NCBI GenBank assembly: GCA_030739585.1
Contig: JASLYX010000001.1
Coordinates: 62,001 to 126,000, forward strand
Direction: 5' to 3'
Origin: Candidatus Bathyarchaeota archaeon
GTDB lineage: Archaea > Thermoproteota > Bathyarchaeia > TCS64
DNA length: 64,000 nucleotides
The translations under genes and the position numbers were made by a program. The notes beneath the pieces are model-generated. The model searched no databases and had not been told where the DNA came from. It worked only from the letters and a program-made list of their open reading frames with translations. The stretch's first letter is position 1, and each line of letters begins with the position of its first letter. Shown one piece after another: positions 44,270 to 63,328 of the stretch.

Positions 44270-44299
44270 GGTAGATACCTACTAGGTTGATATCTACTA
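44270..44299 (+). promoter_or_regulatory. Tandem near-palindromic repeat, probable PadR operator
   Basis: Two adjacent 15-base copies, GGTAGATACCTACTA and GGTTGATATCTACTA, differing at two positions; each contains a near-palindrome (TAGGTAGATACCTA in the first). They overlap the expected transcription start and end at the padR ATG, where a bound repressor would block transcription. Autoregulation by PadR is common. Confidence 0.65.
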
Positions 44300-44838
44300 T
44301 GTTGAGGATTGGACCCCTAGCCTCTGGGGCTGTAAGCCCCCTACAGTTCCTCCTACTCCTACAACTGAATAAAGGTCCAAAATATGGCTATGAGATGCTC
44401 ACCTTCCTAAGAGCGGAGTTCCATGGAGTTTGGGACGTCAAAACGGGGAGCTTCTACCCCGCCTTAAGGAGCCTTGAATCCAGAGGATTTGTAGAGACCT
44501 CCATGATAGATGAAACGGAGTTTTATACTTTGACTCCCAGTGGGGAGTTGCTCCTCAGCAGCTTTAGCGAGCGGATCGAGCTCCGGAGCAAGTTTACTAA
44601 CAGGTACTTTAAGGCCATGTTCAAGCTCATGCCTCCAAATATTACGACCAAAGTTCTCGGGATCTTTAGGAAGCTCAGCGAGGACAATATTGAGTTTTAC
44701 TCCACCCAGATGCTCCTCCTCAATGATTCCATGGACAAGGATGCTCTTATTGAATTTCTAGACGAATCAAAGTCTATAATGGAGGCCCGCCTCGAGAAAA
44801 TTAAGAGTGTGCGGCAGAAGATCAGGGAGGAGATATGA
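44299..44838 (+). CDS. PadR-family transcriptional regulator
   Basis: About 179 residues from ATG 44299; an upstream in-frame TTG at 44287 lies inside the operator repeat and is less likely. N-terminal winged helix: GPKYGYEMLTFLRAEFHGVW near residue 30, TGSFYPALRSLESRGFVE near 50-67. The C-terminal helices (SKSIMEARLEKIKSVRQKI) serve for dimerisation. PadR proteins repress export and stress genes. The stop overlaps the next gene's start (ATGA), placing it at the head of the ABC-transporter operon that it probably controls. Confidence 0.92.
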   Translation: MLRIGPLASGAVSPLQFLLLLQLNKGPKYGYEMLTFLRAEFHGVWDVKTGSFYPALRSLESRGFVETSMIDETEFYTLTPSGELLLSSFSERIELRSKFTNRYFKAMFKLMPPNITTKVLGIFRKLSEDNIEFYSTQMLLLNDSMDKDALIEFLDESKSIMEARLEKIKSVRQKIREEI

Positions 44839-45527
44839 TGTCCGTAATCATGGAGACCGTGGGACTCATAAAGGAGTTTCCCCAGGCCGATGGGATCCTT
44901 AGGGTTCTAAAGGGCATCGACCTTAAAGTCATTGAGGGAGAGTTCATGGCCATAATGGGGCCATCCGGCAGCGGCAAGTCGACCCTTCTCAACATGCTGG
45001 GGGCCCTCGATAAACCGTCGGCCGGGAAAGTCTTCATCCAGGGAACAGACCTTTCCACCTTTAATGACAATGAGCTCGCGGATCTCAGGAATAAGGAAAT
45101 AGGGTTCGTGTTCCAGTTCTTTAACCTAATCCAACGCCTCAACGCCCTGAGCAACGTCGAGCTTCCCATGGCAATTGCCGGGCTCCCCTACAAGGAGAGG
45201 CGTGATAAGGCCCGGAATCTACTCACGCTCGTGGGCCTCGGGGAGAGAATGGACCACAAGCCATCTGAGCTGAGCGGCGGGGAGCAGCAGAGGGTCGCAA
45301 TCGCGAGGGCTCTCGTAAATGATCCCTCGGTATTGCTTTGCGACGAGGTAACTGGGAACCTCGACTCGAAGACGGGCTTTGAGGTAATGGAGCTGCTCCT
45401 GTCTTTTAATAAGGAACAGGGGAAGACGTTCATCCTGATCACCCACGACCCTAACGTTGCCAAGATGGCGCAGCGCCTAGTTCAGATCCAAGATGGAGAA
45501 ATCATTGGAGAGAAACAGCTATGGTGA
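44835..45527 (+). CDS. LolD/MacB-type ABC transporter ATPase
   Basis: 230 residues. Walker A GPSGSGKSTLLNML near residue 42, Q-loop FVFQFFNLI, signature LSGGEQQRVAIARAL near 146, Walker B SVLLCDEVTGNLDSKT near 167. The EVTGNLD variant and length place it in the MacB/LolD/FtsE class, which powers mechanotransmission rather than transmembrane transport. Partner permease is at 47445. Overlaps the padR stop by four bases and the next start by seven. Confidence 0.95.
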   Translation: MMSVIMETVGLIKEFPQADGILRVLKGIDLKVIEGEFMAIMGPSGSGKSTLLNMLGALDKPSAGKVFIQGTDLSTFNDNELADLRNKEIGFVFQFFNLIQRLNALSNVELPMAIAGLPYKERRDKARNLLTLVGLGERMDHKPSELSGGEQQRVAIARALVNDPSVLLCDEVTGNLDSKTGFEVMELLLSFNKEQGKTFILITHDPNVAKMAQRLVQIQDGEIIGEKQLW

Positions 45528-47434
45528 GAATTCTAAAACGTGAAAAAGCATCAATATTGATAATGGTTATCGCAATAGCGATGGCCTTCCAGATCATAAT
45601 GGTCGAGGCACCTGACTACCTGCCCGTCCTCCGGATATCAACTGACGACGTCTACCTCACCGCAGGAGAAGTGAGTGAGATCAAGTTTAACCTGACCAAC
45701 ATGGGCACATGGGATATCTATGAGGCTAAGATCTCTATCTCTGTCCCGTCAACCACGCCAGGGGTATCACTATTGGAGGACTACCACAAAGTCTACAACA
45801 AGATAAAGGGCGGTGCTTTGAAGTCCTTTGTCACCCAGGTATACGTCGACCAGGACACGCCAATCGGTGCTTACAGCCTCACCCTCCAAGCCACGTATAT
45901 GCAAAAAGTCAAGTACGGGGTCGAGATGCTGGAGTCGTCTACTATCCAGATAGGAATTGTGGTCGACAGTGTTTCTAGGCTTAGTTATAGGATGAGTGCA
46001 GAGGCCGAAGACCCTGTGTTCACTGCTGGTGCCGACAACCAACTAAACGTTGTTCTCGGGAACCTCGGGGATGCTACCGTTCACAAGATCGATGCGACTG
46101 TCTCATCTACCTCTCCTTACATCGTGGTGCTTGAAGGATCGAGGTTCACCCATGGTAGCCTAGACGCCAACCTGAGCGTGATGCACCCCGCGACAGTGAG
46201 AGTGTCCAAGAATACGCCTCTAGGGGTCTACACGCTGTCGGAGACAGTGGTTTACGAAGACGAGTCGGGGCAGAGTTATTCCGAGAGTTTCGTTGTGGGG
46301 ATAACAGTTGACAGCTCAACGCTTTCTAATCCCCTGCTAAGCGTCAGCGTCAAATATCCTCAATTAATCGCTGGAGCAGATAATCCTATCACAGTTAACT
46401 TGCTCAACATCGGCAGTGAGAGGCTCCTTGATATCGAGGTCACTCTGGTTTCCGCATCGCCGTACCTCGTGATCTTGGAGGGGGGAAGGATCAACATTGA
46501 TGAACTTGAACTCGAAGAGGGGTTCTCAGCAGATGTTGTTATCGCCGTCTCCAGAAGCGCGCTCGTTGGAGTCTACACTCTATCAACATCATCCTCCTAC
46601 CAGGGACCCGACGGCCAGGGCTACATAGAGGCCTCGACCCTTGGTGTTAGCGTCGAGTCAGTTGAGGTCCCCGTCCAGACCTCGGTCGTGATGAGCGGCT
46701 ATAACTTATCGATCGACCCGGTAAGGCCTGGGGATAGGTTTAGTCTTGTACTGGAGCTGGATTCCCTTGGATCTGACGCCCACGACGTAAAGGTGGCCCT
46801 CTCTCTCGATCCCCTCACAGGGATATCGACGATGAGTCCTACCCTGGTCTCCTTAGATGGCATGGATCCCGGGGAACGGTCCGAGGCCAAGTTCGATCTC
46901 CTTGTGAGCGGTGACGTACGGGCGGGCCAGTACCCCGGCATAGTCACCATCACCTATCTGGACGCCGATGGGCTGCCCAGGAGCTTCATGGAGACCGTGA
47001 CGCTGAGCGTCAGGGGGATAGTTGAATTCAAGCTTATAAATATCGGTACCGTGACGGTGGGCATTGGGGACTCCATAGAGTTCGAGGCTGACATGCTCCT
47101 GGTGGGCACAGAGAGCGTCCAATTTGTGAACATCGAAGTGGTCGAGGACTCAGTCTTCCAGCGCACTGTCGAGAGCGAGGAGTACATAGGGGCAGTCGAT
47201 CCCGACAGCCCCATCCCCTTTGAGGTCCAGTTTAGGGTTGCAGAGGGTGCAGACGCAGGGAAGCACAACTTGATCCTGAGGATCACCTATCAGGATGATT
47301 TGAACCAGCAGCACGTCGAGACCTTGGAGCTCACGTTGGATGTGGAGGAGGTTCGCTCTCAGGGCAACATTGAAACAAGTTCCATAGGCGGTTTCTGGGT
47401 CTGGCTTCGTAAAATCTTGGGATTGGGACCTTAG
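45521..47434 (+). CDS. Exported multi-domain CARDB/COG1361-like protein of the ABC operon
   Basis: 637 residues. N-terminal signal anchor (ASILIMVIAIAMAFQIIMVE), then about five repeated beta-sandwich domains whose strands recur (LRISTDDVYLTAGEVSEIKF, AEDPVFTAGADNQLNVVLGN, VKYPQLIAGADNPITVNLLN). The LTAGADNxLxVxLxNxG pattern is that of CARDB/COG1361 S-layer-like domains. The C-terminus GGFWVWLRKILGLGP may lie on the membrane. It lies between ATPase and permease, so it is probably the extracellular part of the ABC complex, in the place taken by MacA-type adaptors in bacteria. Confidence 0.85.
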   Translation: MVRILKREKASILIMVIAIAMAFQIIMVEAPDYLPVLRISTDDVYLTAGEVSEIKFNLTNMGTWDIYEAKISISVPSTTPGVSLLEDYHKVYNKIKGGALKSFVTQVYVDQDTPIGAYSLTLQATYMQKVKYGVEMLESSTIQIGIVVDSVSRLSYRMSAEAEDPVFTAGADNQLNVVLGNLGDATVHKIDATVSSTSPYIVVLEGSRFTHGSLDANLSVMHPATVRVSKNTPLGVYTLSETVVYEDESGQSYSESFVVGITVDSSTLSNPLLSVSVKYPQLIAGADNPITVNLLNIGSERLLDIEVTLVSASPYLVILEGGRINIDELELEEGFSADVVIAVSRSALVGVYTLSTSSSYQGPDGQGYIEASTLGVSVESVEVPVQTSVVMSGYNLSIDPVRPGDRFSLVLELDSLGSDAHDVKVALSLDPLTGISTMSPTLVSLDGMDPGERSEAKFDLLVSGDVRAGQYPGIVTITYLDADGLPRSFMETVTLSVRGIVEFKLINIGTVTVGIGDSIEFEADMLLVGTESVQFVNIEVVEDSVFQRTVESEEYIGAVDPDSPIPFEVQFRVAEGADAGKHNLILRITYQDDLNQQHVETLELTLDVEEVRSQGNIETSSIGGFWVWLRKILGLGP

Positions 47435-47444
47435 GGGGTAGACT

Positions 47445-48638
47445 TTGAGGATCTTAGATATCTTGCGGATGTCTCTTGAGAGCCTAAAGGAGAGGAAGTT
47501 CAGGTTCGCCCTTAATCTGATAGGCATCCTCATTGGGTGCACCGCGGTTACGGGGCTCGTTTCCATCACCCAAGGGCTGAGTAACAACATCAACACCCAG
47601 CTAGAAGTCTTCGGACCCCAGAATATCATGGTGATCCCAGGTCAGATCCAGCAAGGTAGAGGCATCGTGGGTTCTACGTTGAATTGGAGAGATCTCGAAC
47701 TTATCTCAAAGGTTGAGGACGTCAATGTCGCTACCCCTATAATCGCAAACAAGATAGTTAGCTTCAGCGTGAGGGGTCGATCTTTTATGGTGGAGATGTT
47801 TGGTGTCACCAGCAAGTACTTCGAGATCAATAAGGCCAACGAGGTCGATGACGGCCGACAACTACTTAGGACTGATACATCGGCAGTTGTGATCGGGGCT
47901 AACATTGCTGATCCTCTCGATGAAGATGAGCCTATCCTCGGGGTAGGAGACAGATTAAAGGTCAAGGCAAAGGTGAACGGTAATGAGAAAGAGCTTGCCC
48001 TCCGGGTCGTCGGCATTTATGGAAGAACTGGGGGGAGCTTCGGGGCCGACCTAGACAACTCCATTGCGATACCTCTGAGAACTGCCCAGCAATTCTGGGA
48101 GATCGGGGGAGAGTTCGACTATTTCATAGTCCAGGCCGAAACCCTTGAGGTGATCAGCGATGTTGTTGAGAGGATCGAGGATAAACTGGGTGAAGCAGTC
48201 ACGGTCATAAGCTTCGAATCCGCCCAAGAGCTCGTGGGAGAGGTCATGGGCACCATTGAGGCGGTGCTTGGGGGCATCGCGGCGATCTCCCTCATCGTGG
48301 CAGGCGTTGGCATCATCAACACCATGACTGTGTCTGTAATGGAACGGACTCGGGAGATCGGGGTTCTCAAGGCTGTAGGCGCAAAGAGCAGGGATGTTCT
48401 CCTGATGTTTATCTCTGAGGCCGTCGTCACAGGCATCTTCGGCGGCGTCACAGGATCTCTACTGGGAGTCCTCCTGGCCCAGGTCATCGGGGGCTACATC
48501 AATATGCCCCCCGACCCCAGCCTTGGTCTCGTGGTCTTTGTAGTGGGCTATGCCGTAGCGACAAGCGTTATATCCGGGCTCTACCCTGCGTGGAGAGCAT
48601 CGAATCTGCACCCGGTGGAGGCATTGAGATATGAGTAA
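47445..48638 (+). CDS. MacB/FtsX-family ABC permease
   Basis: 397 residues: helix 1 near residue 20-45 (FALNLIGILIGCTAVTGLVS), a large extracellular MacB_PCD domain, then three C-terminal helices with the FtsX pattern (IAAISLIVAGVGIINTMTVSVMERTREIGVLKAVGA). Works with the LolD-type ATPase encoded two genes upstream. Starts with TTG behind GGGGGT. The stop overlaps the next gene by eight bases. Confidence 0.94.
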   Translation: MRILDILRMSLESLKERKFRFALNLIGILIGCTAVTGLVSITQGLSNNINTQLEVFGPQNIMVIPGQIQQGRGIVGSTLNWRDLELISKVEDVNVATPIIANKIVSFSVRGRSFMVEMFGVTSKYFEINKANEVDDGRQLLRTDTSAVVIGANIADPLDEDEPILGVGDRLKVKAKVNGNEKELALRVVGIYGRTGGSFGADLDNSIAIPLRTAQQFWEIGGEFDYFIVQAETLEVISDVVERIEDKLGEAVTVISFESAQELVGEVMGTIEAVLGGIAAISLIVAGVGIINTMTVSVMERTREIGVLKAVGAKSRDVLLMFISEAVVTGIFGGVTGSLLGVLLAQVIGGYINMPPDPSLGLVVFVVGYAVATSVISGLYPAWRASNLHPVEALRYE

Positions 48639-49335
48639 TAGTAAACGTGGATTCTTTGGAACATTCATAGATTTAGCGTCATCGCCGAGGACCGTTTTCT
48701 CAGGTATTGAAGAGAGCGACCTCAAAAGCGGCATCATCTTGATCATGACCATCGCGCTCCTTTCTGGATGGGCGGGGATGGCCTATTTCACAAAGTCTGA
48801 GCTGCAGCTCCCCAACATGGACTCAGGCTCCAGGCGAGGAAGCCCCATGTTCAACCCAGGGGTTCAGGACTCAGGGGAGATCGATATCGAAACGATCCGC
48901 AGTCGCCTCACCCCCTTCATCGCGCTCGGCGGCATGCTAGGCGCAGTGACCAGATGGATCATACCCAGCATACTCATACTGTTTACAGCGAACATATGGG
49001 TAGGTAAGGGGAGCTCCAAAAGGATGCTCGCGATGACCAGCTTCGCATCGGTACCCCGAATTATCCAGCAGCTCCTAAGGATCATTGACTCATATACCCT
49101 CAACTCAACCGACATTGCATCCCTAACAGCAATGCAGGTGCCTTCCCCGGGCCTGTATGGAAAACTCGTTAACGAGGTGTTCACGGTGTTCAATCTGTTT
49201 GGGGTACTTACAATAATCTTGACCGTTGTCGCTGTCTCGGTTAACTACGAGGCTAATCCCAGGAAAGCAGCTTACGTTACTATCTTGGCATACATAGTGT
49301 ATATGATCCTCCGAGTCTATTTGCCTATACTCTGA
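48631..49335 (+). CDS. Yip1-domain membrane protein
   Basis: 234 residues with about five helices. N-terminal FFGTFIDLASSPRTVFSGIE is typical of Yip1/DUF1282 proteins, which often end archaeal and bacterial operons with MacB-type transporters. Its start overlaps the permease stop (ATGAGTAATAG), so it belongs to the same operon. Role unknown, possibly assembly or regulation of the complex. Confidence 0.85.
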   Translation: MSNSKRGFFGTFIDLASSPRTVFSGIEESDLKSGIILIMTIALLSGWAGMAYFTKSELQLPNMDSGSRRGSPMFNPGVQDSGEIDIETIRSRLTPFIALGGMLGAVTRWIIPSILILFTANIWVGKGSSKRMLAMTSFASVPRIIQQLLRIIDSYTLNSTDIASLTAMQVPSPGLYGKLVNEVFTVFNLFGVLTIILTVVAVSVNYEANPRKAAYVTILAYIVYMILRVYLPIL

Positions 49336-51619: not shown

Positions 51620-51631
51620 GTGATCGAGATC

Positions 51632-53275
51632 ATGGTGCGAATAATACCAGGGTCGTTTCGTCTCCTTCTTGTGTTATCTCTGATGACTTTAATTTTGGTT
51701 GTTCCGGCTTTTGCCCAGATACATGATCGGGCGTTGTTAGTTGGGTCAATCTCTTCGGGGGGTCTTCCCGTGGAGGGTATGACGATTATAGCTAATATGG
51801 TGATGGGTGAAACCTATATTCCAGTATCCAACGTCACCACTGACTCTAAAGGGAGGTTTGAGGTATTCGAGGATCTATTCGGTCACCCGTTCCTGCTGGA
51901 GTTCGAATATGGTGGAATAACTCATTTCAAGACTTTCGTATCTGGGAACGGGACCTATACGATTGATCTTGATCTCTCGGGAACTCTGGACTTTAAGGTG
52001 CTTGACTTGGATGGAAGGGGTGTCGAGGGGATTGAGGTGGCGATCGTTAACAAGGTAGGCTATATCATGGGGTACACAGAAACTGACTCCGCAGGATCGG
52101 GTCATTTTGAAGCCCTCAATATTGGAGATCCCTTCAGTCTTATGTTCGACTCTGATGGTGTACCCTACTCTCAGGTCTTCGATTTCGCTAATGAAACCAC
52201 AGCGAGTGTCGAGGTGCAGCTTCTTGAAACGACTTCCAGCGATGGGGGCCTAGAGATGTATATGCACCACGTGATTGTGGAGATGGAAGGAGAGTATCTC
52301 AACGTCTGGGAGGCTATTACCTTCCGCAATCTCGGTGACCGGATCTTCAACAACAGCTGGCTTAAAATATTTCTCCCCTCCGAGGCTGAGGAGATAACCA
52401 GTGATGTTATGGACTGCTGCGTCCAGATCACTGCAGAGGGAATTGTTATCGACCCAATGGACCCTATTTTTCCCAATGGCACCTTCGAGACCACCATTGA
52501 GTACAAGATCGAGGCGAAGTTGGGCACTCAGATATTATCTAAGAGAATGGCGTATGACACTACCTACTTCTATTATTTTATAGAGAACGTCCCAGGAGTC
52601 ACGGTAGAGAGCCCAGTGGGGCTCAGTTACGAGGGGGAGAGGATCCTTGCTGGAACCAACTATCTCATTTATATGGGCCCTGCACTTCAAGCAGGCGAGA
52701 CCGCCAGCGTCCAGTTCAAGGGGCTTATCAGCTGGACAGATGCCCTCATGAAAAACCCCCTAATGTGGGCTGGAGGGCTTCTCGTTGCCCCCATAGCCCT
52801 CTTAGTGTATTTTTTCGTTTTGAAAATCGACGATGAGCCGAAAGATCTTGAACTTATGCCGATTGCACCATTAGGTAAGATCACGGTTTCTTCAGGGTCA
52901 ATAGAGGAGGAATCTCTGTTGGCGGGTAAAGGCTCAAGAGTGGACTTCAAAGTGGAACTGAATGAGTTGAGGCCTGTCCTGTATAAAGTTGAGGAAGAAT
53001 ACATGAACGGCGGGACATCTGAAAAGACACATAGCCCGTTGATATCAAGGTGCGGCGAAAACCTCAAAGAAATCGAAGCTGAGCTTCAGAGTCCCCGGGA
53101 AGATGACGAAATGGATGATCTCGCAGCCGAAGAGTCCGCTATTGGAGCAGTGCTTGGGACGATCACATCGAATCACAATATGGGGATGCTCTCTGAAAGG
53201 GAGTTTTATCTGCTAAAGGAAAGGTACGAGGCGCGCCTAGCCGAGGTTAAGTCGAAGTTAGAGAAGAACGGTTAA
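51632..53275 (+). CDS. Exported membrane protein with carboxypeptidase regulatory-like domains, linked to ccmF
   Basis: About 547 residues from ATG 51632 (GTG 51620 also possible). Signal peptide FRLLLVLSLMTLILVVPAFA, then two beta-sandwich domains of the carboxypeptidase regulatory type (LLVGSISSGGLPVEGMTIIA; DGRGVEGIEVAIV), a middle extracellular domain, one helix near residue 395 (GGLLVAPIALLVYFFVL) and a cytoplasmic charged tail ending in LSEREFYLLKERYEARLAEV, a coiled-coil or SHOCT-like hairpin. Only 23 bases precede ccmF. I suggest a role in cytochrome c maturation, but the function is unknown. Confidence 0.82.
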   Translation: MVRIIPGSFRLLLVLSLMTLILVVPAFAQIHDRALLVGSISSGGLPVEGMTIIANMVMGETYIPVSNVTTDSKGRFEVFEDLFGHPFLLEFEYGGITHFKTFVSGNGTYTIDLDLSGTLDFKVLDLDGRGVEGIEVAIVNKVGYIMGYTETDSAGSGHFEALNIGDPFSLMFDSDGVPYSQVFDFANETTASVEVQLLETTSSDGGLEMYMHHVIVEMEGEYLNVWEAITFRNLGDRIFNNSWLKIFLPSEAEEITSDVMDCCVQITAEGIVIDPMDPIFPNGTFETTIEYKIEAKLGTQILSKRMAYDTTYFYYFIENVPGVTVESPVGLSYEGERILAGTNYLIYMGPALQAGETASVQFKGLISWTDALMKNPLMWAGGLLVAPIALLVYFFVLKIDDEPKDLELMPIAPLGKITVSSGSIEEESLLAGKGSRVDFKVELNELRPVLYKVEEEYMNGGTSEKTHSPLISRCGENLKEIEAELQSPREDDEMDDLAAEESAIGAVLGTITSNHNMGMLSEREFYLLKERYEARLAEVKSKLEKNG

Positions 53276-53298: not shown

Positions 53299-55218
53299 AT
53301 GATTGGATTCGCGAGTCTTGTAGTCGCCGCAGTCGTCATGGAGTTAACAGTGGTTTTCTATGTCGTAGGGTTATATAGAAAGCGATCTGATCTGGAGAGG
53401 TTTGGGGACCACGGCGTTAAGGCGTCATTTGCCCTCTTCACTTTAGCATCCATATACCTGCTCTATCTCCTCCTCACCAAAGATTTCAACAACCTCTATG
53501 TTTCCACTCACACTAATCGGAATCTCCCTACCGTGTATGTGGTCTCTGCGTTCTGGGCAGGGCAGGAGGGATCCCTCCTACTCTGGGGCTGGCTAACTTC
53601 CCTTACGGCTCTTATAGTGGCGAGGAAACAAATATCGGTTGATAAGTTCAAACCCTATGTCGCTACCATCCTCATTATCGTTCAGTTATTCTTCGTGCTA
53701 ACTATGATCTTCGCATCAAACCCCTTTGAGAGACAGAGATCCACGCCGGCTGATGGACAGGGGCTTAACCCTCTACTCCAGGACCCTGGCATGGTTTTGC
53801 ACCCGCCGACTTTGTTTGTCGGGTATGCTCTAATTGCTGTTCCATTCGCTTACGCTATGGCGGGGCTTATGACCAAGGATGAGGAGTGGCTTTCTAAAAT
53901 TAGGACTTGGACCCTTCTATCTTGGTTGTTCTTGTCCTTGGGAATTGCCTTAGGCGGATGGTGGTCTTATCACGTTCTTGGATGGGGTGGTTACTGGGCG
54001 TGGGACCCTGTTGAGAACGCTTCCCTTATGCCATGGCTCATCATCACAGCTTTTCTCCACTCTGTTGTGATTCAAGAGGGTAAAAAGGGGATGAAGCTCT
54101 GGAATATGCTACTTATCACATTCAGTTTCCTCTTAGTCATCTACGCCGCTTTCCTCACTAGAAGTGGCATCATCCAATCGATCCACTCTTTTTCCGGGTC
54201 GTCTTTAGGCCAATACTTTGGGATCTTTCTTGGGATCTCGACCATCGCCACCGTTGCTCTCATCGCGAAACGATATGTATGGCTGAAGAGTAGGAACATC
54301 TTTGAGGCCTACCTCTCAAAGGAATCGGCGTTCCTGTTCAACAACCTCCTGTTCACCGTACTTACCCTCCTTATCATGCTGGGTACCATCTTCCCCCTTC
54401 TCTCCGAGGCCGTCCGGGGATACCAAGTCAGGGTAGGTCCTGGCTACTTCCAGCAGACTGCTTCACCCCTATCGGTGATGCTGATATTCCTCATGGGGCT
54501 GTGTCCCTTGATCGCTTGGAGGCAGGCATCAGTTGCAAGTCTCAAGAGGAATCTTACCTTCCCCTTCCTCATCACCATAGCCACGACAATTGTCCTCTAT
54601 TCTTTAGGAGTGACTCAGCTGGGAGGGATGGTCGTCTCGGCTTCTATCGGCTTTTCCCTGGGATCTATCTTACAGGAGTTCTATAGGGCAACCGACCCCG
54701 AAGACTCTATGCCCTTAGGAAAGCGGTTTTTGACGCTGTTTAGTGCAGCGAAACAGCATCAGAGGAGATATGGAGGATACATCATCCATCTCTCGATGAT
54801 CCTGATCATTGGGGGTATCGCAGGCTCTACTTTCTACGAGAACTCCAGCATGGTTACATTGGGTATTGATGAGCCTTTCGTTCTGGGGCCCTATACAATA
54901 GAGATGACTGATCTCTACTCGACTCAGGAAGCCGAGAGACAATTATACTTCGTTCTGCTCGACATCTACAAAGGAGGATCTAAGATCTATGAGGCGGACC
55001 CCTCCGTCGCGTATTTCTTTGATAGAGAGATGACGATTCGATATCCCTGGGTGAAATCGCAAGGTCTGTCTGACCTCTACCTTATTTACGAGAGCTCCGC
55101 TGAGGGCAGGGCCACTTTTACGTTCAAGATAATTCCCCAAGTAACGTTAATATGGATCGGCACAATTTTGGGCATCCTGGGATCTATTGTGACCATTTGG
55201 AAATTTAAACGGAAGTAA
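53299..55218 (+). CDS. ccmF: Cytochrome c heme lyase CcmF
   Basis: 639 residues with about 14-15 helices. The heme-handling WWD motif GWGGYWAWDPVENASLMPW lies near residues 228-246, and conserved DPGMVLHPPTLFVGY near 170 contains a heme-ligand histidine. CcmF attaches heme delivered by CcmE to apocytochromes. Followed after seven bases by ccmH. This is System I maturation; the ccmABCDE genes lie just downstream on the other strand. Confidence 0.96.
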   Translation: MIGFASLVVAAVVMELTVVFYVVGLYRKRSDLERFGDHGVKASFALFTLASIYLLYLLLTKDFNNLYVSTHTNRNLPTVYVVSAFWAGQEGSLLLWGWLTSLTALIVARKQISVDKFKPYVATILIIVQLFFVLTMIFASNPFERQRSTPADGQGLNPLLQDPGMVLHPPTLFVGYALIAVPFAYAMAGLMTKDEEWLSKIRTWTLLSWLFLSLGIALGGWWSYHVLGWGGYWAWDPVENASLMPWLIITAFLHSVVIQEGKKGMKLWNMLLITFSFLLVIYAAFLTRSGIIQSIHSFSGSSLGQYFGIFLGISTIATVALIAKRYVWLKSRNIFEAYLSKESAFLFNNLLFTVLTLLIMLGTIFPLLSEAVRGYQVRVGPGYFQQTASPLSVMLIFLMGLCPLIAWRQASVASLKRNLTFPFLITIATTIVLYSLGVTQLGGMVVSASIGFSLGSILQEFYRATDPEDSMPLGKRFLTLFSAAKQHQRRYGGYIIHLSMILIIGGIAGSTFYENSSMVTLGIDEPFVLGPYTIEMTDLYSTQEAERQLYFVLLDIYKGGSKIYEADPSVAYFFDREMTIRYPWVKSQGLSDLYLIYESSAEGRATFTFKIIPQVTLIWIGTILGILGSIVTIWKFKRK

Positions 55219-55225
55219 CAAAAAG

Positions 55226-55762
55226 ATGAAGATAAAAGTAGGAAAAGCCGCTTTTCTAACGCTCGTGATACTGAGCTGCTTATTCCTCGTAGGTGGGACT
55301 ACTTCATACGCGAGGGACCCCGTTTCCAGCGTTACGAAGGAGCTTATCTGTACTTGCGGATGTGGAAAGGTAGCATACGATTGTTACTGTGACCTCGCGA
55401 AAGAGTGGAAAGAGCAGATTGCCGTGGATCTGGCTGCAGGGAAGACCAAGACCCCGATCATTGCCAGCTACGTGGAGGTTTACGGGGACGGTGTCCTAGC
55501 TACCCCGAAAAAATCTGGGCTCGAGCTTTCGATCTGGACGTTGCCGGTGATTGCCATTATTTTAGGCACTGCTGTAATCTACACTTATGCCCAGAGAAAG
55601 TCTCCCATCCCTGACTCTGAGGTTGACTCGGAGATTCTGGACTCTGGACATTCGAGTGGGAGGAAGAAAAAGAAAGACAATGATATTTCAAAATCCGTGG
55701 AACACTACGATAATCTACTCTGGAAGGATTACCAGAAAAAGAAAAATAAGAAAAAGTGTTAG
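55226..55762 (+). CDS. ccmH: CcmH-type apocytochrome thioreductase
   Basis: 178 residues. Signal peptide AAFLTLVILSCLFLVGGTTSYA, a short helical domain, one transmembrane helix near 100-120 (SIWTLPVIAIILGTAVIYTY) and a charged tail. The canonical LRCXXC motif is replaced by LICTCGCGKVAYDCYCDLA with five cysteines, more than bacterial CcmH. It keeps apocytochrome thiols reduced for heme attachment. Co-transcribed with ccmF (seven-base gap). Confidence 0.9.
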   Translation: MKIKVGKAAFLTLVILSCLFLVGGTTSYARDPVSSVTKELICTCGCGKVAYDCYCDLAKEWKEQIAVDLAAGKTKTPIIASYVEVYGDGVLATPKKSGLELSIWTLPVIAIILGTAVIYTYAQRKSPIPDSEVDSEILDSGHSSGRKKKKDNDISKSVEHYDNLLWKDYQKKKNKKKC

Positions 55763-56012: not shown

Positions 56013-56753
56013 TCATTCTTGGAAGACGTGCTCAAATAACAGGAACGATACACCACCGATCGCTAGTAGGAACGCTAGGAGGAGCTGGATCTCCGGTAAA
56101 ACCTCTATTAACGTATAGCCCGAAAGTATCCGCCCAGCCGCTTGGGTGCTGGGAATCAGGACCGGGACAGAGACCGGGAAGAAGAGGAAAGAGAGTAGCA
56201 ATGTCTTGCCCTCTGAGTACATAACAAGGGCCGAGACCAACGAACCTACCAGAGCTAGGTCCATCACCCCCATCACGAACAGAACTAGGATCGCAGGAAT
56301 CACGGCAACATCTAGGTTAAGGAATATAATTGAGGATATAATGGTGGTCAGCAGAACTAGGAGAAGGACCACGAAGCTGTAGAGCACCTTCCCCATTAGC
56401 ACCACGAAGGGTGACGTTGGAAGGCTCCGGAGCCCCGCGATAGTCCCCCTATCCACCTCCCTGGAGAAGCTCGTTGTAAGGGCGAGAATATTTGAGAAGT
56501 AGATCACGATCCAGAGGGCTGCCGAGAGGACCGCGGGATTCCGGATGAATAAGCCCCCCCAAGCAAAGCTGCTCATCAGGATGGAGGTCAGCGCGAAGGC
56601 GATTATGCTCAGGAGTTCGTGGGCACGCCTCAGCTCTACAGTGAGGTCCTTCACAGCTAAGGCAATGGCGAACCTCAGGTTTTCTCCCTCCCCCATCAGA
56701 ATTTTACCTCTCTTTCGATTCTTCCATTCCTCAGGAAAATCCCTCTCCCGCAA
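56013..56753 (-). CDS. ccmB: Heme exporter subunit CcmB
   Basis: 246 residues with six helices, e.g. WIVYFSNILALTTSFSREVD and SFLFFPVSVPVLIPSTQAAG, both CcmB-like. Membrane part of the CcmABCD complex that releases heme-loaded CcmE. The true start is probably ATG near 56694 inside the longer frame, since the first residues overlap the 3' end of ccmA by 58 bases. Confidence 0.93.
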   Translation of the reverse strand: MRERDFPEEWKNRKRGKILMGEGENLRFAIALAVKDLTVELRRAHELLSIIAFALTSILMSSFAWGGLFIRNPAVLSAALWIVIYFSNILALTTSFSREVDRGTIAGLRSLPTSPFVVLMGKVLYSFVVLLLVLLTTIISSIIFLNLDVAVIPAILVLFVMGVMDLALVGSLVSALVMYSEGKTLLLSFLFFPVSVPVLIPSTQAAGRILSGYTLIEVLPEIQLLLAFLLAIGGVSFLLFEHVFQE

Positions 56754-57337
56754 AGTCTTTTTGCCCAGTCCAAGGAGTGGGATGAGATGAGGATCGAGGC
56801 GTCCCGATTCGACTTTAAATGCTTAACCAGGAGCTCGGAGGCGTCAATGTCCAGACCCGAGAAGAGCTCGTCGAGGATTAGGACCTTAGGATGACCTAGC
56901 ATAGCCCTGGCTATATCTGCCCTTTTTCTCAGCCCAAAGGACAGGTGTCGAGCCTTGGTGTTCTTCCATCTTTGCATGTCTGTCATCTCGAGAACCCTTC
57001 CTAAATCCTCTGGGGAAGCGGAAAAGAACTTGCCGTAGAACCTAAGGTTCTCGTTCACGGTGAGCTCATCATACATAAAACTCCGGTGCCCCACGAGTCC
57101 CACTAAGCGTTTTACCCTCTCACGATTTTTTCGGACATCGCTACCCATTACCTGGACCCGGCCAGAGGAGGGGGAGATCTGCCCTGCAACGATTTTCAGA
57201 AGCGTTGATTTTCCTGCTCCGTTGGGTCCTAGGAACGCCACGAAGTCACCTAGGCCAACCTCGAGATCAATGCCCCGAAGGGCGGGTAGAAGATCGTAGG
57301 TTTTGGTCACCCCTCGAAGTTGCACAGCCTGGGACAT
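56696..57337 (-). CDS. ccmA: Heme exporter ATPase CcmA
   Basis: 213 residues, the size of CcmA. Walker A GPNGAGKSTLLKI near residue 35, signature LSFGLRKRADIARAM near 130, Walker B VLILDELFSGLDI near 150. Provides the ATP hydrolysis that detaches holo-CcmE from CcmC. Upstream is a 34-base spacer to ccmE. Confidence 0.94.
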   Translation of the reverse strand: MSQAVQLRGVTKTYDLLPALRGIDLEVGLGDFVAFLGPNGAGKSTLLKIVAGQISPSSGRVQVMGSDVRKNRERVKRLVGLVGHRSFMYDELTVNENLRFYGKFFSASPEDLGRVLEMTDMQRWKNTKARHLSFGLRKRADIARAMLGHPKVLILDELFSGLDIDASELLVKHLKSNRDASILISSHSLDWAKRLCGRGIFLRNGRIEREVKF

Positions 57338-57371: not shown

Positions 57372-57872
57372 TTATTTCGAGAACCAGGTAACTCCGATGT
57401 AACCTACCCCCACCACGCATAGAAGCATCGCTGCTATGAAGAAATTACTAATCTGAGGCGCCTTCTCCTCTGCAGACTCGTATTTAGACGGGCACTTTAC
57501 GAGGAGTTGGTCTGACTCTATGTGACCGTCATTAGTGACACTTCCTATCACTACCACCTGCGTGCTATGGTCGAAGTTCTGAGGAAGGGACCCTTGGAAA
57601 ACAACTGAGAGACGCTGACTTTGGTCGAAGATATCAAACTTGACGATGCCTCCCTCCTCCTGAACTAATGAGTCTAAATCAGCCACTCCAATCACCTGAA
57701 TATCCCTTCCGACGTACCTTTCCGGGTTCGTCAGGATCTGAACCACTGAGATATATGGGTTCACATAGGTGTTCAATCCGTTGTAGGCGAGGAACGCGCT
57801 AGCGACAAGGAAGACCGCGACGACGCCGTACTTTGTGAGTACGTTCAATTTATCAATCCTCAATCTCTTCAA
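57372..57872 (-). CDS. ccmE: Heme chaperone CcmE
   Basis: 166 residues: N-terminal anchor VVAVFLVASAFLAYNGLN, OB-fold domain, and here an extra C-terminal helix (FFIAAMLLCVVGVGYIGVTW). The heme-binding site in bacterial CcmE is a histidine in HXXXY; this protein has the archaeal-type CPSKYESAEEK with cysteine in that place, as reported for CXXXY-type CcmE of archaea and sulfate reducers. Starts TTG and overlaps ccmD by 20 bases. Confidence 0.9.
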   Translation of the reverse strand: MKRLRIDKLNVLTKYGVVAVFLVASAFLAYNGLNTYVNPYISVVQILTNPERYVGRDIQVIGVADLDSLVQEEGGIVKFDIFDQSQRLSVVFQGSLPQNFDHSTQVVVIGSVTNDGHIESDQLLVKCPSKYESAEEKAPQISNFFIAAMLLCVVGVGYIGVTWFSK

Positions 57873-57972
57873 GGCTTTTTTCTATATCAATGCCCCGCTT
57901 TCGGAGCCACAGAGCTGTTACTATTAGGCTGACCCATGTGAGAGTCAGGACGAAAATAGGCTCAATCGGCAT
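57853..57972 (-). CDS. ccmD: CcmD, small membrane protein
   Basis: 39 residues, MPIEPIFVLTLTWVSLIVTA then LWLRKRGIDIEKSLEEIED: one transmembrane helix with a positive inner flank and acidic tail, the exact form of CcmD. The ATG lies 11 bases inside the end of ccmC and the TGA overlaps the start of ccmE, the standard C-D-E order. CcmD holds CcmE in the CcmABC complex. Confidence 0.88.
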   Translation of the reverse strand: MPIEPIFVLTLTWVSLIVTALWLRKRGIDIEKSLEEIED

Positions 57973-58642
57973 TCTGAATCGCCTCCACCCGTTTGAGTTG
58001 TAGCTCGTCGTTGCGCAATTGGACTTTGTAAGCCTTTCTCATTAACCAACCTGTGAAGAGTATCCCCGCGAATATATTCATGATCAGTGCCTGAATCATG
58101 GTACTCGTGAGCCCGAACTCGCCATCCGCAGAGAGTCTCGGGTGAAGTGATGGCCACAGGATAAAAGACAGGTAGCTGAGGGGAACTGTGAGCACTGCAA
58201 GAATGTTATAGACCGCGGATACCGATGCCCGCCTCTCCAAGTTCTCTACCGACATCCTGAGGAAGCAATAGCCCAAGTAGGCTAGCCATAGTATGAGAGT
58301 AGTCGTTTCCCTCGGGTCCCAGTTCCAGTAAACCCCCCAGGTTGCTTTAGCCCAGATAGACCCTCCAATGAGGGTGATCATCCCATAAACCAGCCCAAGG
58401 ATGGCGCATGACTGGGAGAAAGCGTCTAGCCTACGGTCCTTCTTAATCAGATAAGCGATTGCCGTTGCTGCAGAAAGGACAAGCATAATATATGTCGTGA
58501 TGGCTCCCGGCAGGTGGAAATAGAATACCCTTACAAGTTCTCCCAATTCAACCTCCGCCGGAGCGATAAACAAGGCAAAATATATTGCTAATAGGTTAGC
58601 TACTGCAGTGATCCAAATATAGATGTCGTCCCTAAACTTCAC
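57962..58642 (-). CDS. ccmC: Heme-handling protein CcmC
   Basis: 226 residues with six helices. WWD motif present as WAKATWGVYWNWDPRETTTL near residue 110, flanked by the ligand histidines FYFHLPGA near 42 and SLHPRLSAD near 165. CcmC loads heme on CcmE. First gene of the minus-strand ccmCDEAB operon; its start is 23 bases from the divergent heme o synthase gene. Confidence 0.95.
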   Translation of the reverse strand: MKFRDDIYIWITAVANLLAIYFALFIAPAEVELGELVRVFYFHLPGAITTYIMLVLSAATAIAYLIKKDRRLDAFSQSCAILGLVYGMITLIGGSIWAKATWGVYWNWDPRETTTLILWLAYLGYCFLRMSVENLERRASVSAVYNILAVLTVPLSYLSFILWPSLHPRLSADGEFGLTSTMIQALIMNIFAGILFTGWLMRKAYKVQLRNDELQLKRVEAIQNAD

Positions 58643-58665: not shown

Positions 58666-59691
58666 TTGTTAGTCGTTCCGTTCATTTTGGCTTTCCTTTC
58701 CATGCTCACGTTGACAGTCTTTTTCGTTGGCTCGAACAAACATAAAAGGATATCTCATTCGTTCCGGATGGTATTTATTCCTGCGATACTTTCAATATCG
58801 ACATCCCCTCAGGATGGTAAACCTTTGGACGCATGGAGCTACGTAGAGATATCCAAGCTGAAGCTGGTCTTCCTCCTGGTAATAACATCACTGGGGGCAA
58901 TGTTTGTGGCATCCATTAAAACTGATATCCCCCTCACATTATCCCAGATCGTGTTAGGGAGCCTTACGGCTATCCTTGGCAGCGCGGGATGCAATGTTCT
59001 TACCTCCTACATTGACAGGGACATTGATGCGATAATGGATAGAACCCGAAAGCGACCCCTACCATCCAAGAGAATAGACCCAGCAAGTAACGCTTTGATC
59101 TTTGGGATATTTCTATCAGGCGCTTCAATTGCTTTAGCTGCCTTTCAGAACGTCCTCGCTTTCGTGTTCATCCTCCTCGGTATCCTTGACAATGTCCTAG
59201 TCTACAGTTTATTGACAAAGAGGCGGAGTTCATGGAATATTATCCTCGGAAGCTTAAGCGGGGGATTTGCCCCTCTCTACGGCTGGGTCTTCGTCACTGG
59301 CACAATTGATATCACTGCATTCATCCTTGGATGCATTGTTGTCCTTTGGGTACCCAGCCATATCTGGTCCTTAGCGCTCTACTATCGATCTGACTACGAA
59401 AAAGCAGGTATCCCGATGCTTCCCGTAATCGTGGGGACAAAGACGGCTATCCGATGTATCGCCTTTACGGTAATCCTGATGATGGTGGCCTCATTCGCTC
59501 TATATCTATACGGGGGCTTTGGCATCATCTATCTATCGGTAGCGGTTATTACCGGCGCAGTTGTGCTGGGGGCATATCTGTACCTCTTTTTACGCCCAAC
59601 CCAAAAGCTTGCGTGGACCCTGTTTAAGGTCTCGAGCCCCCAACTGTTTCTACTCTTCACCGCAGCCGTTCTTGATCTCTATTTGGCTTAG
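58666..59691 (+). CDS. ctaB: Protoheme IX farnesyltransferase (heme o synthase), UbiA family
   Basis: 341 residues with about nine helices. NVLTSYIDRDIDAIMDRTRKRPLP near residue 120 is the NDXXD-type prenyl-diphosphate site, and the second motif SDYEKAGIPMLPVIVG near 245 is typical of CtaB. The family core starts near residue 55; the first 50 residues add another helix. It converts heme b to heme o for terminal oxidases. No oxidase gene is in the window. TTG 58666 or ATG 58702 could start. Confidence 0.88.
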   Translation: MLVVPFILAFLSMLTLTVFFVGSNKHKRISHSFRMVFIPAILSISTSPQDGKPLDAWSYVEISKLKLVFLLVITSLGAMFVASIKTDIPLTLSQIVLGSLTAILGSAGCNVLTSYIDRDIDAIMDRTRKRPLPSKRIDPASNALIFGIFLSGASIALAAFQNVLAFVFILLGILDNVLVYSLLTKRRSSWNIILGSLSGGFAPLYGWVFVTGTIDITAFILGCIVVLWVPSHIWSLALYYRSDYEKAGIPMLPVIVGTKTAIRCIAFTVILMMVASFALYLYGGFGIIYLSVAVITGAVVLGAYLYLFLRPTQKLAWTLFKVSSPQLFLLFTAAVLDLYLA

Positions 59692-59746
59692 AACACCATC
59701 TGGCTAATCTGATGATGATTTATTAGAATCGCCAGATAACATCATA

Positions 59747-59992
59747 ATGCCCAGATTGAAAGTGACTTTCTATACAAAGAACGAGTGCACTCTCTGCAAC
59801 TTAGTCCTTGATATGTTAAGAGACCTCAGGGAAGAGCTCTCCTTCGAATTCTATATAGTAGATATCACCAGGTCATTAGATGCCTGGAGGCTTTACTGGG
59901 ATAAGGTACCCGTGATCGAGGCCGGAGAGGAGTTTCTCTCAGGTAGGATCGATGAAAGCGAACTCAGGGGCTTTTTGTTGAGAAAAACATAA
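59747..59992 (+). CDS. Glutaredoxin/thioredoxin-fold protein
   Basis: 81 residues: TFYTKNECTLCNLVLDML with a CTLC active site near residue 14, and KVPVIEAGEEFLSGRID with the cis-proline. This is the DUF836/glutaredoxin-like family. It may reduce thiols in the cytoplasm. The position between heme o synthase and Rieske genes suggests a link to the cytochrome region, but a CcmG role is unlikely without a membrane anchor. Confidence 0.88.
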   Translation: MPRLKVTFYTKNECTLCNLVLDMLRDLREELSFEFYIVDITRSLDAWRLYWDKVPVIEAGEEFLSGRIDESELRGFLLRKT

Positions 59993-60019: not shown

Positions 60020-60244
60020 ATGGAGCAGGCTTCTCAGGACATAGACCCTGTTCTCGCAAGCATCAAAACCGATATATATTTCGGGTTGGAAGCTACTCTA
60101 ATCTTCAGATGCACTTCGGGGAGATATTCAATGAATCTAATGGATAATATGCTGTCGAGAACCATCAAAGAACTTATGTTAAGTGTCGTGACCCGAGGAG
60201 CTGATAGCGCCCTCGAAACCGCGTTGGCGCGCATGATCGATTGA
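60020..60244 (+). CDS. Small hypothetical protein upstream of the Rieske gene
   Basis: 74 residues, MEQASQDIDPVLASIKTDIY at the start and a helical end ELMLSVVTRGADSALETALA. No motif or membrane segment is clear. A GGGAGTG precedes the ATG, and its TGA lies 17 bases before the Rieske ATG, so it fits as a real operon member. Family unknown. Confidence 0.5.
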   Translation: MEQASQDIDPVLASIKTDIYFGLEATLIFRCTSGRYSMNLMDNMLSRTIKELMLSVVTRGADSALETALARMID

Positions 60245-60261
60245 CAAGGAGTACGTTAAAG

Positions 60262-60837
60262 ATGTCTATTGTTGGAGACTCAAAAGAGAATACGAAGGAA
60301 AAGGCGATCGAAGAGGGATTTACCCGCAGGGTTTTTCTCACTTTCCTAATGGGAGTTTCCACGGTAATGACAGTCACTCCCTTTGCACCTATGATAGAGT
60401 ACTTTTTCAAGAAACCGGAGAAGAGGGGGGAGAAAAAGAAAGTTGCCAACGTGAGTGATTTAGAGGAGGGTTCCACCACGATCGTCTTCTTTCCGGGGGA
60501 AGAGACTGAAGACCGCACGTTTCTGGTCCACTTGACCCCTGAAGAGGTGGATCAAGCGATCTCAGAGGGACGGGATGAGTTCATAACCGAAGGGTTTGTT
60601 GCTTTCAATAGCATATGTCCCCATCTCCAATGCCCAGTGGGACCCCCAGAAGGGACCCCTGAGGAAGAGGAGTTCGTCTGCCCCTGCCATGGTGGGGTAT
60701 ACAATAAATTCGATGGCACCGTTTTAGGAGGGCCCCCGCCCGCACCTCTCCCTGCCGTGACTCTTGAGGTTGATAAGACAACAGGTGATATCTACGCCAC
60801 TGGGATGATCGGCAAAGTCGGAAGGGGAAGAGTATAG
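60262..60837 (+). CDS. Rieske iron-sulfur protein
   Basis: About 191 residues from ATG 60262, chosen for AAGGAG 12-17 bases upstream. Twin-arginine signal anchor FTRRVFLTFLMGVSTVMTVT near residue 25, then the Rieske domain with CPHLQCPVG and CPCHGGVYN, the cluster ligands of cytochrome bc1/b6f-type proteins. It transfers electrons from quinol toward cytochrome c outside the membrane. Cytochrome b follows after 18 bases, forming a minimal Rieske/cytochrome b pair. Confidence 0.94.
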   Translation: MSIVGDSKENTKEKAIEEGFTRRVFLTFLMGVSTVMTVTPFAPMIEYFFKKPEKRGEKKKVANVSDLEEGSTTIVFFPGEETEDRTFLVHLTPEEVDQAISEGRDEFITEGFVAFNSICPHLQCPVGPPEGTPEEEEFVCPCHGGVYNKFDGTVLGGPPPAPLPAVTLEVDKTTGDIYATGMIGKVGRGRV

Positions 60838-60855
60838 TCCAAGAAGGTTCATGAG

Positions 60856-62163
60856 TTGAATAAAACTGAATTCCTTGTAGAGAAATTAAAGGAAATTTTT
60901 CGGTGGATAGAAGACAGATACAAAGCCACCGTTTTGTCAAGCGTCAGGCTCAACTTCCCACTCACATTCTCTTCCATTCTCTCTAACTTGGGGATGGCGA
61001 CTTTCATCAGCTTTATGATAGCATGTGGAACCGGTCTTTTCCTCCTTCTATATTACACACCGACCCCGTGGAACCTCGCGTATGATTCGATTAAATTCAT
61101 CACGGAGGAGGTCATTTTCGGGCACCTTATTCGAGGCCTCCATTACCACGGTTCAAACGCTATGGTCCTGTTTTCTATCATCCATATCATCTACGTCTTC
61201 TTCAAGAGAATGTACAAAGGGAGATTCGACTTCCTATGGATTACCGGTGTCCTCTTAGGGGTTATCACGGTAATGGTGGCGTTTACGGGATACACTTTAA
61301 TCTTCAACGAGTTGGCTGTTGAAGCACAGAATATAATGATGGGCATTGCTGAGGCTGTCCACCCCCTTGCGAAGCTTCTTATGGCGGGGACTAACCTCAC
61401 GGACAGGTCCTTAAGGCTCTACGCTTTCCATATTGGTCTCATTCCCGCAATGATGCTCGCGCTTATGGGACTGCATTTTCCCAGGGCCCTCAAGATAAGC
61501 ATACCTATGATCATTGGGATCCTCGCGGTTATCTTCCTCGCCACAGCAGTGTACCCCGCTGAGGTGGGCATAAAATTCGATCCGTCGATCTCGACGGAGT
61601 TTAAACCTCCTGAATGGTACTTACTCTGGGTGTTGACCCTCCTCAGGACCTGGGCTCCCGTGATCATCGTGGGGGTCCTAATCCCAGGAGCTCTGGTTAT
61701 GGTCACTATGGGGGTTCCCTGGATCGACCGGGGACGTAAGCCCAAGCTTACTGACAGGCCGGCGTTTGCGGTGATGGGTATGACCTCTATTATCTACTGG
61801 ATATACCTTACCTTGAGAGCGGGCTATGGGGTAGGCCCTCCAGCTCTCCAAATTCCAGTTCATGAAGTCGTAGGAGTCTTTCTGCTTTTCCTTGGCGGAT
61901 CCGCATTCATCTTCAGATTGCTGACCCCCTGGCTCAAGAGTAGACCCAGGGCGAAAAGGAGACCGGCAACTGGTTATCTCAAGGGTAACCTATCCCTCGG
62001 GATATTGTCCCTAATTGTTCTTATCCAGGCAGCTCTCCTATGGGTTTTCTCCTCGGCATATATCCATAGCAACACGGAAATGATGGCCTTCTCCCTAGGA
62101 TTCGTCATCCTGGGCTTTGGTATAGCACAACATGTCTATGCTGTGGCAAATCCAAAAACGTGA
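60856..62163 (+). CDS. Cytochrome b (fused b6/subunit IV type)
   Basis: 435 residues. Heme ligands: LHYHGSNAM and SIIHIIY in helix B, 14 apart, and AFHIGLIPAMMLALMGLHF in helix D with histidines 15 apart, the spacing of b6 rather than mitochondrial b. The quinol-site PEWY motif is present (KPPEWYLLW). More helices follow to give the C-terminal part. TTG start. With the Rieske protein it forms the core of a quinol:electron acceptor oxidoreductase; no cytochrome c1 or f is encoded alongside. Confidence 0.93.
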   Translation: MNKTEFLVEKLKEIFRWIEDRYKATVLSSVRLNFPLTFSSILSNLGMATFISFMIACGTGLFLLLYYTPTPWNLAYDSIKFITEEVIFGHLIRGLHYHGSNAMVLFSIIHIIYVFFKRMYKGRFDFLWITGVLLGVITVMVAFTGYTLIFNELAVEAQNIMMGIAEAVHPLAKLLMAGTNLTDRSLRLYAFHIGLIPAMMLALMGLHFPRALKISIPMIIGILAVIFLATAVYPAEVGIKFDPSISTEFKPPEWYLLWVLTLLRTWAPVIIVGVLIPGALVMVTMGVPWIDRGRKPKLTDRPAFAVMGMTSIIYWIYLTLRAGYGVGPPALQIPVHEVVGVFLLFLGGSAFIFRLLTPWLKSRPRAKRRPATGYLKGNLSLGILSLIVLIQAALLWVFSSAYIHSNTEMMAFSLGFVILGFGIAQHVYAVANPKT

Positions 62164-62314
62164 TTCTACTTTTTCAACTTTTGAACATTTGGCGTAATCT
62201 TATAGTTATGTAGTATTGGATAGCGTTTCTTAGTTATCCCTAAAAATAAATTGATATTTCTTTAGCTCCACGTTGGGGACTACATTAAACTAGTTAATCT
62301 CTACGTGCTAATCA

Positions 62315-63085: not shown

Positions 63086-63328
63086 TAGATGTCATCCTCT
63101 GAATTCTAAGGAGTTATCGTGTTTCAGCATTTATGTATTTCTTTCCTTTCCCTTGTTTTTTTTTACTAAGATGAAAGAAATACTTCCTTAACCTTTCTTA
63201 AAATGAGATTTGATCCTTTGAATGATTTACAGATTGATCATAATTCATATCTTGACTAGAAGAAAAGGCATAACATCCCTAGTTCTCCTAAATCCCATGT
63301 TAACAGATAGATTCAAAAACTTGGGGTA

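Follow-up and report, generated by a model that had tools for sequence, protein, structure and literature searches.

A 547-residue exported membrane protein, here called P, is encoded directly upstream of ccmF and ccmH in a genome of Candidatus Bathyarchaeota archaeon, and we propose, with a probability of roughly 0.6, that it acts as third subunit in a heme-ligation module of bacterial-type CcmF and CcmH, in the position of the TPR protein CcmI. We infer this function from the position and company of P alone, and the best guess is that it works much as CcmI does, keeping apocytochrome or CcmH next to CcmF. The window, meaning the whole stretch of DNA that was analysed, comprises 64,000 nt (contig JASLYX010000001.1, positions 62,001-126,000, assembly GCA_030739585.1) of a genome of 1.69 Mb with a completeness of 95%. 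The P gene, its predicted parts, and the ccm genes of the window are as follows.

51632..53275, + strand: gene of protein P (P0001), 547 aa, first in the order P-ccmF-ccmH
51632..51718, + strand: signal segment of P, residues 1-29, ending at AFA before Q (site placed by eye from hydropathy)
51731..52240, + strand: two carboxypeptidase-regulatory-like beta domains of P, residues ~34-117 and ~118-203, borders approximate
52241..52747, + strand: third all-beta domain of P, residues 204-372, the stretch best matched with the distant archaeal member P0009
52415..52420, + strand: adjacent cysteines C262-C263 (MDCC) of P, present in 3/3 archaeal members and missing in the Metabacillus protein P0005
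52766..52822, + strand: transmembrane helix of P, residues ~379-397, by hydropathy
52928..53272, + strand: predicted cytoplasmic tail of P with two helical hairpins, residues 433-487 and 488-547
53299..55218, + strand: ccmF, bacterial type (Pfam CcmF_C, 4.3e-41, and Cytochrom_C_asm, 4.6e-36; tree)
55226..55762, + strand: ccmH (PF03918, 4.1e-16)
56013..56753, - strand: ccmB (PF03379, 4e-17)
56696..57337, - strand: ccmA, an ABC ATPase (ABC_tran, 8.9e-29), assigned from its position between ccmB and ccmE
57372..57872, - strand: ccmE of the cysteine (System I*) type, motif CPSKY (PF03100, 7.1e-20)
57962..58642, - strand: ccmC (Pfam; 68% identity with the protein of G004, a genome of the same family)

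The reading frame of P runs from ATG at 51632 to the stop at 53275 with no inner stops, and an in-frame GTG at 51620 would extend the protein to 551 residues. ORF reading, hydropathy, and Pfam confirmed the initial annotation in describing a 547-residue exported protein with one helix, 23 bases from ccmF. The carboxypeptidase-regulatory-like domains claimed there were recovered weakly: PF13620 (CarboxypepD_reg) matched P in two stretches with an E value of 1.8e-7 and 31.8 bits, just under the curated cut-off of 32.3, and its orthologs at 29.7 and 28.4 bits, below the same cut-off. The third domain and the tail hairpins had not been noted there; the third domain (204-372) is taken, from sequence comparison, as the core of the P family. 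The statement that P is unlike the known Ccm proteins was right, as neither Pfam nor NCBIfam gave a match to any Ccm family at E up to 1. PF03918, the CcmH family, did not match P0001, CcmH being encoded by the next gene but one.

Between the window genome (G000) and another species of the same genus (G006), dN and dS were 0.23 and 1.13 for P and 0.12 and 0.99 for ccmF. The reading frame of P is therefore not a product of chance, and P is under purifying selection. The best-kept part of P in this comparison was the membrane helix region (88% identity over residues 373-398) and the least-kept the linker (38%), with the hairpins in between (49% and 58%) and among the faster-evolving parts. An internal repeat of the tail hairpins was evident in the G006 ortholog (z 14.6) and fainter in the P of the window (z 3.0). 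C-terminal helical hairpins of about 50 aa, described by eye as G-x-[IV]-[ST]-x-x-x-Y, were widespread in the class on otherwise unrelated proteins (L075-L078 and the tail-only matches).

The model of whole P was poor (pLDDT 40.7), with the tail predicted as two helical hairpins (block pLDDT 45-78). The third domain modelled alone was all beta with pLDDT 55.1 and pTM 0.55. A Foldseek search with this model, read at pLDDT 55, gave no match at E 0.001 or better; the best were the N-terminal beta domain of M1 aminopeptidase and the luminal domain of OST1/ribophorin I, with E values from 1.3e-3 to 2.5e-3. The VIA Z value was about 5 for these two and 6.5 for the AP-4 mu domain. Ribophorin I consists of beta domains, a helix, and a cytosolic helical bundle. 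These fold matches are leads, and their values may mean only a common arrangement. A search of PDB by sequence with P gave nothing convincing (best E 0.036), and no report of a likeness between P and ribophorin I was found in the open-access literature searched.

In the window, the stop of P lies 23 bases before the start of ccmF, which is separated from ccmH by 7 bases, and ccmC, ccmE, ccmA, and ccmB are on the opposite strand, directed toward ccmH. The NCBIfam model TIGR01189 (ccmA) matched the ABC ATPase with 119.7 bits, under its cut-off of 131.6. A CcmE with cysteine defines System I* in the excerpt of PMC3601427 that was consulted, and its CxxxY motif takes the form CPSKY in the three genomes with P (window, G006, and G439) as well as in Metabacillus. 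CcmH was located at 55226-55762 in the window, at 12538-13056 in L037, and at 10272-10874 in L074; its cysteines were arranged as CxCxC...CxC in the window and G006, compared with LRCxxC in E. coli, and were accompanied by a long charged C-terminal tail. A UbiA-type prenyltransferase and a small glutaredoxin-like protein (DUF836) were encoded beside ccmC (58666-59992). A Rieske protein and a cytochrome b are encoded next to each other at 60241-62163, followed by a cytochrome with six CxxCH motifs and a protein with one (62315-63781). The run from 60241 to 63781 possibly encodes a bc-type complex whose cytochromes are Ccm clients. On the other side of P, the run 44287-49335 held a PadR-like regulator, an ABC ATPase, a permease, and a membrane protein, all recognised by eye, as well as an exported protein of 637 aa that gave NEW3-like matches (PF10633); a run of similar lengths lies upstream in G006.

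The gene of P was found beside ccmH or ccmF in 3/3 genomes that carry it. The ortholog in G006 (L029) is 63% identical and stands in the same order, P-ccmF-ccmH. The ccmF of the window was 80% identical to that of Candidatus Bathyarchaeota archaeon isolate BS750m-G27, the single record returned when genome contigs were scanned with CcmF. The third member, P0009, is a 411-aa protein of G439 (L074), a genome from a different family of the same class, and was aligned with P at 28% identity over 236 aa (E 5e-36). It has one PF13620 match (28.4 bits, under the cut-off), the third domain, the helix, and a single hairpin. All three archaeal members share the signature S-x-VMDCC ... DPM-x-P-x-x-P. In G439 the gene of P0009 stands between ccmH and ccmC (ccmE-ccmF-ccmH-P0009-ccmC), and ccmA and ccmB are encoded on the opposite strand, indicating that the linkage of P to the ccm genes survives rearrangement. 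The proposal of the initial annotation that P is a Ccm partner was thus borne out by linkage, in 3/3 genomes with bacterial-type CcmF and CcmH and in two gene orders.

When 256 genomes of the class were searched with A2, a profile of three rows, 3 matched along the length of P, the same members from which A2 was built and which match by construction; the G439 member had been found with a profile (A1) that did not contain G439. A2 also matched a short stretch only in 42 further genomes, of which 41 corresponded to the helix and tail and 1 to the first beta domain. With a four-row A1, 19 matches were obtained among 151 relatives; G000, G006, and G439 were kept and 16 tail-only matches were dropped. 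P0001 as query matched 2 of 27 family genomes, and 3 of a phylum draw of 398 genomes, 2 of these at 18 bits and taken as chance. No match to P0001 was found by tblastn in the plasmids, and none was confirmed in viral contigs with the profiles of P and CcmF. In G275, the gene upstream of ccmF encodes an exported protein of 435 aa; this protein was considered as a counterpart of P and rejected, as no relation to P was found.

CcmH scored above cut-off in 3/256 class genomes, the same three as P, and three further genomes gave short matches below it. The CcmF of the window matched 27/256 genomes: the three bearing P scored 640-1410 bits, 16 others, with CcmF of full-length type, scored 135-182 bits, and the remaining 8 stayed below 40. 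P was found only with, and beside, bacterial-type ccmF and ccmH among these 256 genomes, and the surroundings of the 16 other ccmF genes showed neither P nor CcmH, with several contigs short (the shortest 3.2 kb). The probability that P and CcmH fall in the same three of 256 genomes by chance is 3.6e-7 when kinship is ignored. The co-occurrence does not amount to three independent events, because two of the genomes belong to one genus and the CcmFs of all three make up a single group, so that everything may go back to one transfer.

Absence of P from the ccmF loci of close relatives had been named by the initial annotation as evidence against it. Within the genus (four genomes), both genomes with ccmF, G000 and G006, carry P, and neither P nor ccmF was found in G007 (76% complete) and G008. 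At the level of the family the expectation did not hold, as eight other genomes, all among the 16, have ccmF without P. In none of these eight was CcmH found above cut-off, and we explain their lack of P by their carrying another CcmF lineage, assigned by tree for seven and judged by score for G003, which is partly masked.

A CcmF tree of 28 rows separated the three P-bearing genomes and 6 bacterial sequences (one from E. coli, five from plasmids) from 19 archaeal ones (15 of the class and 4 others; G003 omitted as masked) by a branch with support 100/100, and the CcmFs of the window, G006, and G439 formed one group (99/98). The donor of the module is not named because the root of this tree is not known, the bacterial sample is small, and the letter composition is unusual in seven of the rows. 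The CcmC of the window was 68% identical to that of G004, 62-63% to those of G015 and G013, and 34% to that of Metabacillus, and its CcmE was 43% identical to that of G004 and 27% to that of Metabacillus. Since CcmC is close to that of the family while CcmF groups with the bacterial proteins, the machine looks, by sequence comparison, like a hybrid in which a CcmF-CcmH-P module of bacterial type is combined with native CcmC. The heme-delivery side would be native by sequence for CcmC and by operon for CcmE, CcmA, and CcmB. The P-ccmF-ccmH module is probably of bacterial origin and probably replaced the archaeal-type ccmF of the family.

Bacterial operons offered a further comparison. On the plasmids Metabacillus pB218 and Cytobacillus p1, the order is ccmE-ccmF-ccmH-[116 aa]-[310 aa]-ABC ATPase-ccmB-ccmC-type gene, with a TlpA gene in addition, and a CcmD-family gene is listed on the Metabacillus plasmid. 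The pairs of interest are located as follows.

L050, 12351-13623: two hypothetical proteins (116 and 310 aa) between ccmH and ccmA, Bacillaceae plasmid
L051, 8348-9620: two hypothetical proteins (116 and 310 aa) between ccmH and ccmA, Bacillaceae plasmid

The Metabacillus pair consists of P0004 (116 aa) and P0005 (310 aa), with counterparts on Cytobacillus p1, and no Pfam or NCBIfam family scored above cut-off for P0004, P0005, or the Cytobacillus protein P0007. Judged by eye and by alignment, P0005 has a signal, one outer domain, one helix, and one tail hairpin. It was 21-22% identical to P and collinear with it over 238 columns, with an hhalign probability of 1.3% and BLAST E values of 0.11 and 0.022, neither of them significant. 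In 400 shuffles, its outer domain reached z values of 2.9 (P0001), 4.6 (P0017), and 4.1 (P0009), levels matched by 8, 0, and 2 of the shuffles, and its tail z values of 4.7, 6.8, and 3.4 against the same three. Hairpin tails are generic, so only the likeness of the outer domains counts. Common descent of P0005 and P is likely, though not proven, on this comparison. Among the plasmids, tblastn with P0005 returned only the Metabacillus and Cytobacillus records.

The slot after ccmH was occupied by the two hypothetical proteins in 2/2 Bacillaceae plasmid operons and by a TPR protein or an annotated CcmI in all four other plasmid operons with CcmH (Pseudonocardia, Ruegeria, Psychrobacter, and Methylophaga). 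TPRs were found in the slot proteins of Pseudonocardia and Ruegeria by the same search that gave none in P. The Rhizobium and Deinococcus plasmids, with ccmF and no ccmH in the stretch read, were left out of this count. On the Psychrobacter (L154) and Rhizobium (L155) plasmids, ccmF-type genes lie beside heavy-metal or arsenic resistance genes, and no other ccm genes were seen in the stretch read around the Rhizobium one. Elsewhere in bacteria, some ccm operons encode zinc-ribbon proteins and proteins of the carboxypeptidase-regulatory-like kind.

Under the proposed role of P as a third subunit, its third beta domain, outside the membrane, would hold apocytochrome or set CcmH near the heme site of CcmF, its membrane helix would pack against CcmF or CcmH, and the cytoplasmic hairpins would keep the complex together, while the bacterial-type P-ccmF-ccmH module would work with the native heme-delivery genes. 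The third domain, the helix, and a hairpin appear to be the working core, because they are kept while the carboxypeptidase-regulatory-like domains vary from two to one to none (if P0005 is a relative); the latter domains are most likely spacers. A wider reading, which we advance tentatively and hold somewhat less probable than its negation, is that P, P0009, and P0005 belong to one apocytochrome-holding family with a beta domain and a single helix that replaces the TPR protein CcmI in cysteine-type System I of bacteria and archaea, and that moved into this class as a module displacing an archaeal CcmF that works without CcmH.

Three other roles were weighed. P might be a client-specific factor that matures or anchors one multiheme cytochrome instead of serving CcmF-CcmH in general, which we regard as unlikely. 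Genes with multiple CxxCH motifs are indeed close by, at 62315-63085 in the window (six), at 17646-18695 of L037 in G006 (eleven), and at 14328-18149 of L074 in G439 (seventeen and seven), and specialised CcmF paralogs stand beside large cytochromes in ANME archaea, as described in an excerpt of PMC9012536. However, P adjoins ccmF or ccmH and not a cytochrome gene in 3/3 genomes, and 8 of the 16 genomes with the other CcmF have a gene with at least three CxxCH motifs in the stretch read, yet no P. Less probable still, P could be an ordinary surface protein that was carried along with the transferred ccmF-ccmH and takes no part in cytochrome maturation; hairpin-tailed membrane proteins are common in the class, but P is kept beside ccmF or ccmH in two gene orders and two families, and purifying selection and the strongly kept membrane helix argue against a passive passenger. 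It is highly improbable that P is a CcmG-like redox partner whose C262-C263 pair passes electrons to CcmH or apocytochrome, since the MDCC motif, although invariant in 3/3 archaeal members, is absent from P0005, P has no CxxC and matched none of the thioredoxin-type Pfam families even with E allowed up to 1, and adjacent redoxin-family and CcdA-like genes are present elsewhere in the same genome (C2:211449-212491).

A third subunit in the sense proposed for P need not be essential, because in the excerpt of PMC3601427 the System I* of Desulfovibrio functions without CcmH and CcmG and does not strictly require CcmI, which nevertheless enhances cytochrome c production in System I*. Excerpts of other studies describe CcmF, CcmH, and CcmI as one heme-ligation complex (PMC3884852) and CcmF as needing CcmH (PMC10746174). 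For archaea, the consulted part of a study from 2022 describes CcmD, CcmH, and CcmI as lacking in all genomes, and considers replacement of CcmH/I by another protein unlikely on the basis of heterologous expression, for Methanosarcina-type machines (PMC9084895). CcmH has been reported in Ferroglobus (PMC4429474) and in Geoglobus and ANME-2d (PMC9012536), again as given in excerpts of these papers. The CcmH of three genomes of the class Bathyarchaeia is at odds with universal absence from archaea as worded in that part of PMC9084895. No published account of P, or of CcmH in this class, was found among the matches listed in the open-access literature, nor any open-access paper linking carboxypeptidase regulatory-like or CcmI-like proteins with ccmF.

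Genomes of the class with CcmH and a candidate third subunit thus stand beside family relatives that yielded neither of the two, a natural comparison of two solutions for heme attachment inside one archaeal family. In Bacillaceae, the P0005 gene is an unnamed gene of a bacterial ccm operon and is open to genetics.

The initial annotation had suggested CcmI or CcmG as the proteins for which P substitutes. Substitution for CcmG was not borne out. CcmG is thioredoxin-like and works with CcmH, whereas P has neither a thioredoxin domain nor CxxC, and the lack of CxxC together with the redoxin/CcdA-like pair elsewhere makes a CcmG role unlikely. Substitution for CcmI is plausible by position in the operon, but homology to CcmI was not detected. 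TIGR03142 (N-terminal domain of CcmI, cut-off 29.3 bits) matched neither P0001 nor its tail alone, nor whole P0008, P0007, or P0009, and the best score in six frames of the window genome was 11.9 bits. No TPR was detected in P0001 or P0008 with E allowed up to 1, nor in P0009 with E up to 0.1. Below cut-off, TIGR03142 was the best NCBIfam match of the G006 tail alone (15.4 bits, E 0.017), P0004 (19.0 bits, E 0.0013), and P0005 (15.4 bits, E 0.017), and of 0/4 unrelated hairpin-tailed proteins. In shuffles against the loops of bacterial CcmI, however, four unrelated proteins of the class reached z values up to 5.9 and the tails of P orthologs up to 5.2. The likeness of the tails to CcmI is not specific, because unrelated hairpin-tailed proteins match the CcmI loops equally, and homology to CcmI through the tail of P was rejected on the failure of this control.

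Compared with P, the Bacillaceae protein P0005 is alike in an outer domain that aligns with the third domain of P and in an operon slot equal to that of P in G439, and differs in lacking a carboxypeptidase-regulatory-like domain and MDCC. CcmI, the C-terminal part of E. coli CcmH, and NrfG are chaperones of the TPR type that handle apocytochrome for the CcmF-CcmH complex. P differs from them in having no TPR, an outer part predicted as all beta, and, judged by hydropathy, a single helix downstream of the signal segment in place of the two loop-joined helices of CcmI. It resembles these chaperones in combining a large outer part with a helical hairpin predicted to lie inside, and in being encoded beside ccmF and ccmH as a predicted third subunit.
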